A stretch of DNA of 64,000 nucleotides from Microthrixaceae bacterium (GTDB lineage Bacteria > Actinomycetota > Acidimicrobiia > Acidimicrobiales > Microtrichaceae). The stretch lies in the NCBI GenBank assembly GCA_023957995.1, contig JAMLGK010000016.1, positions 1 to 64,000 on the forward strand, given 5' to 3'. The translations under genes and the position numbers were made by a program. The notes below the pieces were generated by a model. It was not told where the DNA came from. It did no database searches and saw nothing but the letters and a program-made list of their open reading frames with translations. Shown here one piece after another: positions 3,786 to 53,903 of this stretch. Numbering within the stretch: the first letter of the stretch is position 1; each line of letters begins with the position of its first letter.

Positions 3786-6098
3786 TCAGGACTCGATCGG
3801 CACCGAATCGGTCGTGGCCCCGGTCGGTTCATCGGAGTCGGAGGTCTCGGGTTCTCCCTCGATGCTGATGTTCGGCATGATCACATCCAGCCAGTGCGGT
3901 ATCCACCAGCCGGCCCTGCGCATCAGACGCATCAGCGAAGGCACCAACAGCATCCGCACGATGAGCGCGTCGACCAGAACGCCCACTGCGAGCCCGAGGC
4001 CGATCTGCTTGACCATCGGGCTGGGGTTGGACACGAACGACACGAACACCGCGAACATCACCAACGCCGCAGAGATGATGACCCGACCGGTGGTGCCCAG
4101 GGAGCGTTCCACCGCGTCAGACGGATCGCCGGTGCTGAGGTACTCCTCCTGCATGCGGCTCATCAGGAACACCTCGTAGTCCATCGACAGTCCGAAGACG
4201 ATCGCGAACACCAACAGGGGGACGAAGGACACGATGTCGACCTTCGTGTCCATGCCGATCAGGCCGCTGAGCCAACCCCACTGGAACACTGCCACCAGCA
4301 CCCCGAACGTGGCTGCGATGGTCAGCAGGTTCATGAGCACCGCCTTGATCCCGATCAGCACGGAGCGGAACACCACCAACAGCAACAGGAACGCCCCTCC
4401 GAGAACTGCGCCCATGAACAGCGGCATGGCATCGACGATCGCCGCATCCAGATCGATGATCGTGGCCGTGAGACCTCCCACGTGGGCCTGACCCTCGAGC
4501 GGGGTGCCGTCGAGGGCTGCAGGGATGCTCTGTGACCGCAGGGTCCGAACCAGGTCGCTGGTCGCCGGATCGTCGGGGCCCGTTGTCGGTTGGACCTGGA
4601 TCGCGAACGCGGTGGGACTGGGGGTGACGTCGGGAAGCGGCGGGCTGACGGTCTGCACGCCGGGTGTGTCGGCGAGGTTCTGTTGCAGCCCCGCCACGAC
4701 GGCCGCCATGTCGGCGTCGATGGTGCCGGCGTCGTCGGCTGCGTCACCGCCAGCATTCCCATCGGCTCCGTCGCTGTCGGTGTCGGTGTCGGTGTCCGAG
4801 GTGGTCCCGCCGGTCTCGGCCACCACGATCAGCTCGCCGTTGACACCCGGTCCGAATCCGTGGGCCAGGATGTCGTACGCCTGCTTCTGGGTCATCTCGG
4901 GCGGATCGGCGTCATCGCCGACCCAGCCGGTCTGCAGGTCGCGGACCGGAGAGGCGAGCACGACCATGACGAGCACCGCTGCAGCGGCGACCACCACCGG
5001 GTGCTTGGTCACGAGCCGGGCCAGACCGACGAACAGGCCACTGGACGCGGGACGGGTCATCTCGATCGGCTCACCCCGACGCCACGTGAACAACCGGGTT
5101 CCCACCGCCCCGCCGAGAGCGGGCACCAGGGTGACCGCGGCGATCACCATGATGATCACGTAGAGGGCAGCGACGAGACCCATCTGGCTGATGAGCGGGA
5201 TTCCGACTATGACCAACGCCACCGTCGCCAGGCAGATGGTTATGCCGGCGAACATCACCGCTCGCCCAGCGGTCGAGAGCGCCCGCGACATCGCTTCTTC
5301 GGGGGTGTGACCCGCTGCGAGCTCGCCGTATGCACGGGTGAGTATGAACAGCGAGTAGTCCACACCCACTCCGAGGCCGAGCATCGTGCCGAGCGTCGGA
5401 CCCACGGTCGGAATGGTGAAGACGTTCTCGAGCAGCGTGACCAGGGCGCCGGCGAACATCACGCCGATGATTGCGTTGACGATCGGGAGGGAAGCGATGA
5501 ACACCGACCGGAACACCAACAACAACAGCACCAGCGCCACGGCCAGGCCTATCTCGTCCGCGTAGTCCGACAAGGTGGAGGTCGGTGGATTGAACGTGTC
5601 GACGAGGCTGCCGCCGAACTGCACGTTCAGCCCGGCGTCGACGGAGTTCTGAGCGGCCCCCACGACCTTGTCGAAGGAGTCCTCCGGTAGGTCCTTCGAC
5701 GCCGCAGGGAACAGCACGGTCGCGTAGGCGATGGTTCCGTTCGGGGAACTCTGCGAGTTGAGGAGTTGTGTGCTGGCGGCCAGCGGATTGCTGACCGATG
5801 CGACCCCGTCGATTGACTCGAGGTTGGCGATGGTCTGCTGGATCGCGTCCTCGAACTCGTCGACGGTCTCACCGGTGGTCTCGAACACCACCTGGGCGCT
5901 GGTACCGGCCAGTTGCGGGAAGTCCGACGAGAGGACGTCGAGGGCATCCTGTGAATCTGAGCCCGGGATCGAGAAGTCGTTGGTCGTCTCGCCGCCCCAC
6001 TTCGATGCGGCCAGACTCGTCCCCACGGCGACGAGGATCCACACACCGAGGACCACCCAGTGGTGTCGAGCGCATGTTCGGCCGAGGAATTTGAGCAT
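3786..6098 (-). CDS. MMPL/RND-family transporter
   Basis: 770-residue membrane transporter of the MMPL branch of the RND superfamily, which exports lipids or hydrophobic compounds using the proton gradient. It has the duplicated layout: TM1 near residue 15-32, a large extracytoplasmic loop, a TM bundle containing GVGVDYSLFIL (~245-255), a second extracytoplasmic loop and a second bundle with GLSMDYEVFL. The Asp-Tyr pairs are typical of MMPL proton-relay segments. The second loop carries an acidic insert beginning SDTDTDTDSDGAD, encoded in part by hexamer repeats at 4776-4793, probably a disordered linker. AAGGA lies upstream of the ATG. It is 120 bp downstream of a coiled-coil lipoprotein gene, a possible periplasmic accessory. 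Substrate unknown. Confidence 0.9.
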   Translation of the reverse strand: MLKFLGRTCARHHWVVLGVWILVAVGTSLAASKWGGETTNDFSIPGSDSQDALDVLSSDFPQLAGTSAQVVFETTGETVDEFEDAIQQTIANLESIDGVASVSNPLAASTQLLNSQSSPNGTIAYATVLFPAASKDLPEDSFDKVVGAAQNSVDAGLNVQFGGSLVDTFNPPTSTLSDYADEIGLAVALVLLLLVFRSVFIASLPIVNAIIGVMFAGALVTLLENVFTIPTVGPTLGTMLGLGVGVDYSLFILTRAYGELAAGHTPEEAMSRALSTAGRAVMFAGITICLATVALVIVGIPLISQMGLVAALYVIIMVIAAVTLVPALGGAVGTRLFTWRRGEPIEMTRPASSGLFVGLARLVTKHPVVVAAAAVLVMVVLASPVRDLQTGWVGDDADPPEMTQKQAYDILAHGFGPGVNGELIVVAETGGTTSDTDTDTDSDGADGNAGGDAADDAGTIDADMAAVVAGLQQNLADTPGVQTVSPPLPDVTPSPTAFAIQVQPTTGPDDPATSDLVRTLRSQSIPAALDGTPLEGQAHVGGLTATIIDLDAAIVDAMPLFMGAVLGGAFLLLLVVFRSVLIGIKAVLMNLLTIAATFGVLVAVFQWGWLSGLIGMDTKVDIVSFVPLLVFAIVFGLSMDYEVFLMSRMQEEYLSTGDPSDAVERSLGTTGRVIISAALVMFAVFVSFVSNPSPMVKQIGLGLAVGVLVDALIVRMLLVPSLMRLMRRAGWWIPHWLDVIMPNISIEGEPETSDSDEPTGATTDSVPIES

Positions 6099-50924: not shown

Positions 50925-50954
50925 CGGCCTCCACGTGCACCACAGGGGCTTGCG

Positions 50955-50968
50955 TACCCCAGGGGGTA
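50955..50968. promoter_or_regulatory. CsoR/CstR-type operator at the repressor gene
   Basis: TACCCC-AG-GGGGTA, a perfect 6-2-6 dyad, ends 16 bp before the repressor start and belongs to the same family as three sites further right. Confidence 0.8.
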
Positions 50969-50984
50969 TCCCTACGATGGGTCC

Positions 50985-51254
50985 ATGGACCTTCCTGAGG
51001 AGACGATCTCAGATCTGACCAAACGACTGCACAGGGTGGAGGGACAGGTCCGCGGCATCGCCCAGATGCTCGAGGACGGTCGGGAGTGCCGTGACATCGT
51101 GACCCAGCTCTCCGCTGCGAACCGAGCGCTGGAGCAAGCCGGGTTCATGTTGGTGGCCGCCGGCCTCACCTGGTGCGTCGAGGACCCTGAACGCTCCGCG
51201 GCCGAGGGCTACGCCATCGAGGACGTCCAGAAGATGTTCACCAAGCTGGCCTGA
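50985..51254 (+). CDS. CsoR/RcnR/CstR-family repressor, likely thiol/persulfide-sensing
   Basis: 89 residues, all-helical DUF156 fold. Two Cys survive: Cys35 (ECRD) and Cys64 (LTWCVED). In copper-sensing CsoR a His lies four residues before the second Cys; here that position is Gly60. A Cys-Cys pair without the His is the pattern of CstR, which senses persulfides, so metal sensing is less likely. RLHRVEGQVRGI is the DNA-binding helix. The gene is bordered by a self-operator and is predicted to regulate the MMPL exporter and the small Cys protein. Confidence 0.85.
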   Translation: MDLPEETISDLTKRLHRVEGQVRGIAQMLEDGRECRDIVTQLSAANRALEQAGFMLVAAGLTWCVEDPERSAAEGYAIEDVQKMFTKLA

Positions 51255-51311
51255 CCCGCGACCCTGGCCCGACCCGCAACGGGTCGAACGACTGCCCCTG
51301 GTCGACTCGAC

Positions 51312-51494
51312 TCAGGATCCTCGGATCCGGCTGAGGAATCCGCCGCGCCCCGACGAGGCACCGGCAGCCGCCTTGTCCTCCCGACAGTGGCACCTCTCCG
51401 ATTCCGGGACGTGACCCAGAACCTGGTCGACGTGGGCGCCACAACCGGCCCACGTAGGTCGCTGGCACTTCCGACAGGTCATCTCTCTACACAT
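51312..51494 (-). CDS. Small Cys-rich protein (MCR...CRKC...WAGCGAH)
   Basis: 60 residues, ATG inside an operator palindrome; a second ATG at 51482 would drop four residues. Six Cys (2, 7, 10, 18, 35, 37) in the pattern CxxxxCxxC...GCGAH...CxC, followed by a basic Gly/Ser-rich tail. It looks like a Zn- or sulfur-binding mini-ribbon. Being controlled by the same operators as the exporter suggests a thiol/metal buffer role (inference). Confidence 0.7.
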   Translation of the reverse strand: MCREMTCRKCQRPTWAGCGAHVDQVLGHVPESERCHCREDKAAAGASSGRGGFLSRIRGS

Positions 51495-51508
51495 ACCCCC
51501 TAGGGTAT
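51493..51508. promoter_or_regulatory. CsoR/CstR-type operator over the small Cys gene start
   Basis: ATACCCCCTAGGGTAT, 6-4-6 dyad, covering the ATG region of the Cys-rich gene on the minus strand. Confidence 0.8.
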
Positions 51509-51629
51509 CTGTTGGTGGCCCCGGGGTCAACGCGCGAGTGCCCCACCCACATCGACCTCCGGGCCGGACCGCCACCTGCCGGTCACCGGACCAGCTGGGA
51601 GGAGGACGCCCTGCTTGATCCCCTCCGCG

Positions 51630-51645
51630 ATACCCCCTAGGGTAT
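51630..51645. promoter_or_regulatory. CsoR/CstR-type operator upstream of MMPL gene (site 1)
   Basis: ATACCCCCTAGGGTAT, identical to the site at 51493. It lies 59 bp before the MMPL start codon. Confidence 0.82.
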
Positions 51646-51653
51646 CTGTCTTC

Positions 51654-51669
51654 ATACCCCTCGGGGTAT
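51654..51669. promoter_or_regulatory. CsoR/CstR-type operator upstream of MMPL gene (site 2)
   Basis: ATACCCC-TC-GGGGTAT, perfect 7-2-7 dyad, 24 bp from site 1 centre to centre and 35 bp before the start codon. Paired operators are typical of tightly repressed exporters. Confidence 0.82.
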
Positions 51670-51704
51670 AGAGCAGATCCTTCCGACGAGCGAGGCGGCC
51701 ACGA

Positions 51705-53903
51705 ATGACCCTGAACCCGACCAGAACCGATGACGTCTCGCAGGTCCCCGACCGCCGGTCCGCCGAGCCCGGCACCGGCGGCACGGGCCACGAACCCTGG
51801 TTTGCCAGGCTCGCTCGGTTCTCGGCAACGCACCGCCGTGCGGTGATCGTCGTCTGGTTGATCGCAACCATCGCCGCAGCTCCACTGGCGGTCACGCTGA
51901 CCGGTGCGCTCTCCGGCGCCGGTTGGGAGGCGCAGGGTTCGGTGTCGGCAGAGGTTCGGGACGAGATCCGGGAGGACTTCCCCGAGCTCGGCGCCGAGGC
52001 CGCCATCGTGGTCGTCGACCAGGACGCACCTTTCTCCTCGGATCCGACCGCACTGGCGTCGGTGGTGCGGGACCTCGATGGCGCGCCCGGTGCTGCTTCG
52101 GTGCTCGATCCGTTGAGCCAGGCCCCGGAAGCCGGCCTGATCTCACCTGATGGAACCACCGCGATGATCCCGGTGACCCTCGATGCGGCCGAGGATGCCG
52201 ATCTCCCCGAGTCGGCCGGTGAGCTCATCGACCACGTCGATGGTCTGACGGTGCCCGAGGGCGTGACCGTCGAGGTGACCGGCGAATGGCCTGTGTGGAG
52301 CGATTTCAATGCCACCAACGAGGAGGCACTCCACAAGGCGGAGCTGCTCTCAGCGATCCCCACCATCCTGCTGTTGCTCGTCGCCTTCGGTTCTGCGATC
52401 GCCGCCGGGTTGCCGCTGATGCTCGCCCTCGCAGGCATCGCGGTGGGCTTCGCGTCACTACACCTGCTCGGCACCGAGATGCCGCTGTCTGTCTGGTCGA
52501 TGAACTTCTCGATGATGATCGGACTGGCCGTGGGCATCGACTACAGCCTGTTCATCGTCTCGCGCTACCGCGAGGAACGCGAGGACGGACACGACGCGGT
52601 CGACGCCATCGCCAACACCCTGACCACAGCCGGCAAAGCCGTGTTTCTCTCTGCGATGGCAGTCGTTCTCTCGCTCGCCGCGGTGTTCGTGGTGCCGGTC
52701 ATGGTGTTCCGATCGATGGCGCTCGGCATGATCCTCTCGGTCACCGCGGTCGCTGTCGCTGCGCTGACCCTGCTTCCGGCGGTGTTGGTGTCGCTGGGTG
52801 ACCGGGTCCTGGTCGCCGGGGCCGACGACGACCCCGACCGCCGCGCCGAGGGCCGCTGGGCACGCTGGACCGGACTCGCGCTGTCCCATCCCGGACGCAC
52901 CCTGGCTGCAGGCGCCGCGCTGCTCCTGCTGGTGGCCGCGCCGGCCCTCGGGATGAGACTCGGAATGCCGGGCGCCACGGTGGTCGACGAGGGTCGCTCC
53001 AGCCGCGACGGATACGAACTGTTGTCCGAGGCGTTCGGCCCCGGAGCCGTCGGGCCGCTGTTCGTGACCGTGCCCGTTGCGCAGGCGCCGGAGGTCATCG
53101 ACATCGCCTCGGGGGACCCGAACGTCCTGGACGCCAGGGCGGTGGCAGAGCCAGCCGCCTCGGGCCGCACCGTCGTGCGGGTCACTCCGGCGACGGCCGT
53201 GGACGACGGCGAGACCTCCGAGATGGTCGCCCGGCTCCGCAGCGAAGTGGGTGAGGCAGTTCCCGATGCCTCGGTCGGAGGTCCCGCAGCCCAGAACTAC
53301 GACCTGACCGAGGTCCTCACCGGTCGAGCACCGCTGGCCATCGGCATGATCATGGTCGTGGCGTTCATGATGTTGCTCATCGTGTTCCGGAGCATCACGA
53401 TCGCGATCTCATCCATTCTGATGAACCTGCTCAGTGTGGGCGCCGCGTTCGGATTCGCCACCGTCGTGTTCCAGTACGGAATCGGCGCCGGGCTCATAGG
53501 CATCGAGCACCAGGGCTTCGTGGATGCATGGGCGCCGCTGTTCTTCTTCGCTCTGCTGTTCGGACTGTCGATGGACTACCAGCTGTTCCTGCTCGCCGCG
53601 ATCCGCGAGCGCTACGAGGCGACCGGAGACACCCAGCAGGCAATCCGCGAGGGGATCGCCCGCACAGGGCGCCCGATCACGAATGCCGCGCTGATCATGA
53701 TCGTCGTGTTCGTCGCCTTCGGGGTGACCGGGCCCATTCCCCCCACCGAACTCGGCCTGACCCTCGCACTGGCGGTTCTGCTCGACGCCACCGTCGTGCG
53801 AATGATGCTCGTGCCCTCGCTGATGGGCATCCTCGGGGAATCCAACTGGTGGCTACCCGAGTGGCTGGAGCGGATCCTGCCCAAGGTCCAGTTCTCGCAC
53901 TGA
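51705..53903 (+). CDS. MMPL/RND-family transporter under CsoR/CstR-type control
   Basis: 732 residues. TM1 near 45-66, extracytoplasmic loop, TM bundle with GLAVGIDYSLFIVSRYREER (~268-287), second loop, and second bundle with LFGLSMDYQLFLLAAIRERYE. Both Asp-Tyr pairs are intact. No acidic insert is present, unlike the paralogue at 3786. Two operators in its promoter tie it to the nearby repressor. MMPL transporters usually move lipids or drugs; a sulfur/metal-linked regulon is unexpected, so export of a thiol- or persulfide-related or lipophilic stress compound is worth considering. Confidence 0.9.
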   Translation: MTLNPTRTDDVSQVPDRRSAEPGTGGTGHEPWFARLARFSATHRRAVIVVWLIATIAAAPLAVTLTGALSGAGWEAQGSVSAEVRDEIREDFPELGAEAAIVVVDQDAPFSSDPTALASVVRDLDGAPGAASVLDPLSQAPEAGLISPDGTTAMIPVTLDAAEDADLPESAGELIDHVDGLTVPEGVTVEVTGEWPVWSDFNATNEEALHKAELLSAIPTILLLLVAFGSAIAAGLPLMLALAGIAVGFASLHLLGTEMPLSVWSMNFSMMIGLAVGIDYSLFIVSRYREEREDGHDAVDAIANTLTTAGKAVFLSAMAVVLSLAAVFVVPVMVFRSMALGMILSVTAVAVAALTLLPAVLVSLGDRVLVAGADDDPDRRAEGRWARWTGLALSHPGRTLAAGAALLLLVAAPALGMRLGMPGATVVDEGRSSRDGYELLSEAFGPGAVGPLFVTVPVAQAPEVIDIASGDPNVLDARAVAEPAASGRTVVRVTPATAVDDGETSEMVARLRSEVGEAVPDASVGGPAAQNYDLTEVLTGRAPLAIGMIMVVAFMMLLIVFRSITIAISSILMNLLSVGAAFGFATVVFQYGIGAGLIGIEHQGFVDAWAPLFFFALLFGLSMDYQLFLLAAIRERYEATGDTQQAIREGIARTGRPITNAALIMIVVFVAFGVTGPIPPTELGLTLALAVLLDATVVRMMLVPSLMGILGESNWWLPEWLERILPKVQFSH

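Follow-up and report, generated by a model that had tools for sequence, protein, structure and literature searches.

Why should an exporter of the MMPL family be placed behind the operators of a CsoR-family repressor, and to which signal would such a regulon respond? The question is raised by a locus in a 64,000-nucleotide stretch (hereafter, the window) of contig JAMLGK010000016.1 from a Microthrixaceae bacterium of the Actinomycetota, in which a CstR-like repressor gene (cstR), a gene for a 60-residue Cys protein (cys60), and an MMPL transporter gene lie among four inverted repeats. A conserved regulon joining the CstR-type repressor to this clade of MMPL transporters is well supported by the sequence comparisons described below, and we consider it likely that this regulon, taken together with its signal, is that of a sulfane-sulfur-sensing repressor. 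What the original prediction had put forward as a possible new export module stands as a regulon, and proved to be widespread, not peculiar to the window.

Operators and promoter anatomy

The region 50954–51669 contains four near-identical 16-bp inverted repeats of the ATACCC-N4-GGGTAT type (Table 1), in agreement with the predicted arrangement of dyads flanking the repressor, Cys protein, and MMPL genes. The first dyad is real, with its start at 50954, one base earlier than the 50955 originally given, and begins with G, a single mismatch to ATACCC...GGGTAT. Save for this base 1 of operator 1, all four sites also match ATACC-N6-GGTAT. Exact gapped dyads occur three times in the window against 0.01 expected, a number reached in none of 100 shuffles, and a search of the 3.54-Mb genome for further exact or one-mismatch sites, as had been proposed, returned only the four copies of the locus and one G+C-rich look-alike (C33:30528). 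A chance origin of the dyads is ruled out by the shuffles, the genome-wide scan, and a control with the reversed pattern.

Table 1. Features of the cstR–cys60–MMPL locus, in window coordinates
Feature	Position	Strand	Remarks
Operator 1	50954..50969		GTACCCCAGGGGGTAT; just 5' of cstR
TACGAT, possible -10	50973..50978	+	ends 6 bases 5' of cstR ATG, just after operator 1
cstR-like repressor gene	50985..51254	+	89 residues; PF02583; Cys35/Gly60/Cys64, no His
cys60	51312..51494	-	60 residues, MCREMTCRKCQRPTWAGCGAHVDQVLGHVPESERCHC...; low-confidence predicted zinc-knuckle-like beta hairpin
Operator 2	51493..51508		ATACCCCCTAGGGTAT; at Cys-protein start; identical to operator 3
Operator 2, minus-strand reading	51493..51508	-	ATACCCTAGGGGGTATG
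Operator 3	51630..51645		ATACCCCCTAGGGTAT; 5' of MMPL gene
Operator 4	51654..51669		ATACCCCTCGGGGTAT; 24 bases after operator 3, 5' of MMPL gene
MMPL/RND transporter gene	51705..53903	+	732 residues; modelled MmpL3 fold; no cysteine; D279-Y280 and D624-Y625

Each operator is closely associated with a putative promoter. On the minus strand, operator 2 ends with the A and T of the cys60 start codon and holds a possible -10 element, TACCCT, at 51507–51502. The same geometry is found in 12 of 14 distinct Cys-protein genes identified by the motif, where the dyad begins exactly 14 bases 5' of the start codon and reads ATACCCT, with its end overlapping the ATG. It is thus conceivable that TACCCT, by its position, is the -10 element of a leaderless transcript whose promoter lies within the operator itself; the TACGAT element suggests a leaderless transcript for cstR as well. 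Two dyads 22–24 bases apart are common 5' of the MMPL gene (the window, L128, L150, and L170). In each of the three cases (cys60, cstR, and MMPL), the bound repressor would cover both the promoter and the start. Homologous Cys-protein genes with a start-overlapping operator were also observed at L079, L082, L084, L096, L098, L101, L110, L119, L152, L153, and L181.

The Cys protein belongs to no family in Pfam or NCBIfam, and a fold search with its low-confidence hairpin model gave no match in the PDB. Its invariant residues in the alignment are C2, C7, C10, C18, H21, and C35, and a role as a zinc knuckle or in sulfur relay is a guess.

Repressor residues and half-site spacing

The family PF02583 (CsoR/RcnR, DUF156) spans the whole repressor (E = 1.1e-22; 80.7 bits against a cut-off of 22.8). 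The protein keeps the two conserved residues Cys35 and Cys64, and the position of the copper-ligand His is occupied by Gly60, which is the residue pattern of the CstR type; with this replacement, the repressor lacks the Cys-His-Cys Cu(I) site of copper CsoR/RicR proteins. The absence of the copper-site His had been read correctly from the sequence, and the CstR-like nature of the repressor, its operator-linked regulon, and the membership of the 732-residue MMPL exporter therein were upheld when hundreds of genomes were compared. CstR of Staphylococcus aureus is a persulfide sensor governing the cst operon; it resembles the present system in its pair of conserved Cys, in lacking the copper His, and in its autoregulated sulfur regulon, but its targets are CstA, CstB, sulfide:quinone oxidoreductase (SQR), and TauE, with no RND/MMPL exporter among them.

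The operator is also that of a characterized sensor. ScCsoR (SCO0620) of Streptomyces coelicolor, a two-Cys CsoR-family repressor that senses sulfane sulfur, binds the same 16-bp site, ATACC-N6-GGTAT (i.e., N4), with two sites in one promoter and autoregulation in a sulfane-sulfur context, and its release from DNA by polysulfide via Cys37 was demonstrated by electrophoretic mobility shift assay and mass spectrometry (PMC7533328). The circuit differs in its described targets, which are persulfide dioxygenase (PDO), rhodanese, and a sulfite transporter, with no MMPL or small Cys protein described (PMC7533328).

One other member of the repressor family is encoded in the genome, a Cys-His-Cys CsoR (C7:76717; L007, L145) divergent from the gene of an HMA-domain protein and preceded by a 17-bp dyad, ATACCCACTATGGGTAT, one base longer (N5). 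Among the repressors with a nearby site in the collected loci, all 30 of the Cys-Gly-Cys type have N4 and all 22 of the Cys-His-Cys type have N5, with no exceptions, and two further Cys-Gly-Ala repressors also have N4 dyads (Fisher p = 4e-15 for the split, a value not to be taken literally because the sequences are related). As part of this set was gathered with the N4 pattern, the subset found by protein alone is the fair one, and it shows the same split (6 of 6 N4 and 21 of 21 N5). The copper CsoR of Streptomyces lividans shares the protein family and a G-tract dyad with TAC/GTA ends, but is a Cu(I) sensor with the His, controls copZA, and has sites of the form TAC-N9-GTA, i.e., N5, one base longer (PMC3902906). 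For a CsoR relative of a sulfur pathway in Thermus, adding or removing one base between the half-sites lowers the affinity ~10- to 15-fold (PMC10318464). The one-base difference may provide a simple sequence rule separating sulfur from copper regulons in this repressor family.

It is highly improbable that the locus is a copper regulon of the CsoR/RicR type, with the Cys protein as a metallothionein and the MMPL protein handling copper or a copper chelate. RicR regulons do contain a small Cys-rich protein, RicR is the best NCBIfam match of the repressor, and its solved structural relatives are mostly copper CsoRs; however, the RicR match scores 59 bits, below the cut-off of 175. G-tract dyads are likewise common to both groups (PMC3902906), but every repressor with an N4 site has Gly where the copper His would be, the Cys-His-Cys CsoR encoded separately in this genome has its N5 site next to an HMA protein, and behind the sites sulfur genes were recognised, not copper genes. 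The copper regulon was rejected on three grounds, namely the absent His, the spacing of the sites, and the genes around them.

Genes behind the site in related genomes

The exact N4 dyad was found in 25 of 61 related genomes, and the reversed control pattern in none. When ~4 kb on either side of every exact site was examined, 50 of the 60 sites had a recognised gene oriented away from them with its start no more than 300 bases off. These genes were cys60 (21), cstR (15), MMPL (11), PDO-rhodanese (6), thioredoxin (4), rhodanese (4), and SulP (4), and also CoA-disulfide reductase-rhodanese, CMD, DUF302, and glutaredoxin. Orthologues of the repressor in named genomes adjoin PDO-rhodanese (L011–L016), CoA-disulfide reductase-rhodanese together with the Cys protein (L017 and L018), TauE (L011), or thioredoxin (L010 and L019). 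In relatives, the same site stands before or beside genes for PDO-rhodanese, SQR, CoA-disulfide reductase-rhodanese, thioredoxin, SulP, and TauE, and this gene set is that of a persulfide (CstR) regulon. The sulfur reading is preferred to the metal reading, as in the original prediction, because the 16-bp site of ScCsoR is shared, sulfur genes lie behind the site in relatives, and the genome has its own copper-type CsoR with a 17-bp site; sulfane sulfur is likely the inducing signal. Ten exact dyads are without a recognised gene (L102, L103, L111, L118, L121:12424, L129, L131, L133, L134, and L136); some of them adjoin a major facilitator superfamily (MFS) transporter or a methyltransferase-like or DsbA-like protein, and these genes are possible further members of the regulon.

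The immediate neighbourhood of the window locus showed no rhodanese or dioxygenase gene, as originally noted; elsewhere, however, the genome does encode a type III SQR (C23:37690; 74% identity) and PDO-rhodanese (C32:79814; 58%). Absence of PDO and SQR from the genome was considered and rejected. An apparent in-frame TGA in the SQR gene proved to be its ordinary stop codon. Since neither gene carries the site, the regulon in this genome consists of cstR, cys60, and MMPL.

The link between the transporter and the site was approached from the other end by a search with the MMPL protein alone in three overlapping sets of genomes: 61 relatives, 395 from the class, and 396 from the phylum. A gap in identity separates a first clade (60–74%) from a sister clade (38–43%) and from paralogues (31–38%). 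All 22 first-clade genes (at least 60% identity, with upstream DNA present) have the dyad, 20 before MMPL and two before a cstR-MMPL operon, and none of the 14 paralogues examined carries it. In the MMPL tree, from which fragments were excluded, the first clade comprises 20 members, all with the site (SH-aLRT, 100), and both clades are jointly separated from the paralogues (support, 99). A merely local coincidence of MMPL beside cstR is ruled out by the protein-only search, the clade-wide sites, and the tree. The sister clade is not uniform. MMPL-cstR-DUF302 with two dyads occurs in several genomes, all from one other family (L204, L206, L208, and L213), and further loci have near-sites. On plasmids of Nocardia farcinica and Rhodococcus, MMPL, cstR, YgaP-like, DUF302, TauE, and MBL-fold genes form a single run. 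Judged from these gene neighbourhoods, the association of MMPL with sulfur genes is phylum-wide. The SUL modules on Antarctic Arthrobacter plasmids share a CsoR-family regulator, a small hypothetical protein, sulfur dioxygenase, rhodaneses, TauE, and DUF302, but their extra transporter is of the MFS, not MMPL (PMC6305408). A literature search confined to open-licence papers found no description of an MMPL–CstR pairing.

Transporter, candidate cargo, and proposed mechanism

Pfam MMPL is matched in two stretches of the transporter (E = 8.6e-82), which places it in the MMPL family with the RND fold. Its Asp-Tyr pairs, D279-Y280 and D624-Y625, are invariant in a 30-row alignment; such pairs constitute the proton relay in MmpL3. 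The structure model built with this alignment (mean pLDDT, 85) matches mycobacterial MmpL3 (PDB 6or2, 7nvh) over its full length (25% identity; template-modelling score, 0.84), a closer match than to MmpL4/5, HpnN, or CusA. The transporter nevertheless differs from MmpL3 in having no C-terminal cytoplasmic domain and in its sulfur gene context, and it is not a member of the NCBIfam MmpL3 equivalog, the trehalose monomycolate exporter (242.5 bits, far under the cut-off of 1400).

The repressor could sense sulfane sulfur while the MMPL protein carries no sulfur at all but maintains the envelope, moving a lipid that replaces or protects sulfur-damaged membrane. This is suggested by the match to the fold of a lipid-transporter family, the retained Asp-Tyr pairs, and the lack of cysteine in the pump, but we consider it rather unlikely, as the recognised neighbours across the phylum are genes of sulfur and thiol chemistry and lipid synthesis genes are no recurrent neighbour at the loci examined. 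That the MMPL protein exports sulfane-sulfur compounds is a tentative proposal, to which we give somewhat less than an even chance; that it represents an RND/MMPL-class pump dedicated to the export of sulfane sulfur, whether as organic polysulfides, thiol persulfides, or S8, and controlled by a persulfide sensor across the Actinomycetota is possible but doubtful.

In the mechanism that we propose for sulfane-sulfur export, the reduced repressor would occupy the four 16-bp dyads overlapping or abutting the promoters of cstR, cys60, and MMPL, and would block RNA polymerase. Persulfides or polysulfides would modify Cys35 and/or Cys64, whereupon the repressor would leave the DNA and the Cys protein and the exporter would be produced. 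The probable role of the Cys protein is to buffer or relay sulfane sulfur or a metal, and the presumably proton-driven MMPL protein of MmpL3 fold most likely moves hydrophobic or amphiphilic reactive sulfur out of the membrane, the candidate cargo being an organic polysulfide, a thiol persulfide conjugate, or S8. The persulfide regulons known so far provide for the oxidation or transfer of sulfur and for the export of sulfite. If correct, the proposal would place an export route of detoxification beside oxidation by SQR, PDO, and rhodanese, and a pump of the mycolate/siderophore/drug class regularly under a persulfide sensor would extend sulfur homeostasis by an export arm. The recurrent CstR–MMPL pairing would point to an export step so far undescribed in bacterial sulfur detoxification, assign a function to a set of chromosomal and plasmid-borne MMPL genes that lack annotation in Actinomycetota, among them Nocardia and Rhodococcus, and provide a testable role for a family of tiny Cys proteins.

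Several points weigh against this proposal. Repressor binding, induction, and transport are predictions from sequence, and the N4/N5 rule is derived from related sequences. As PDO and SQR are outside the regulon, none of its members in this genome is an enzyme with a known action on sulfur. Pumps of the MmpL3 fold are known to carry lipids, siderophores, or drugs, and a sulfur substrate is therefore guesswork. Parts of the sister clade have an ArsR-type repressor, not CstR, next to MMPL, and the pump family is not bound to CstR alone. CsoR-family repressors can, furthermore, answer other thiol-reactive agents. The repressor might sense a broad range of thiol-reactive electrophiles, with the pump as an exporter of xenobiotics or for disulfide stress, and sister-clade loci with genes of general thiol and peroxide stress (OsmC, AhpD-like CMD, and thioredoxin) are consistent with this; nevertheless, the genes found behind or beside the site, which include PDO, SQR, rhodanese, TauE, and CoA-disulfide reductase-rhodanese, indicate sulfide and persulfide specifically, and we regard the electrophile alternative as improbable.

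At the sister-clade loci with ArsR, genes for OsmC, thioredoxin, SQR, PDO, or DUF302 are close by. In other Actinomycetota (L192–L198, L202, and L212), a Cys pair (LC..VCGG) is present at the C-terminal end of the ArsR-family repressor, OsmC or CMD-like genes lie nearby in some cases, and this repressor may be a second regulator that the same pump has acquired. Its identification as a BigR-type sulfide sensor was dropped (41 bits against the BigR cut-off of 155), and no such claim is made.

Some MMPL loci deserve separate mention. On a Nocardia farcinica plasmid (L222), an MMPL-cstR-DUF302 operon lies ~1 kb from integrase and organomercurial-resistance genes, and this module may travel on mobile elements. 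The MMPL orthologue of a same-genus genome (G001; L128) is broken by a frame change near residue 473, and another genome (G017; L169) retains a 134-residue remnant with 77% identity, either by decay or by assembly error. The window itself contains a second MMPL gene, at 3789–6098 on the minus strand, which is 31% identical and has no such dyad.

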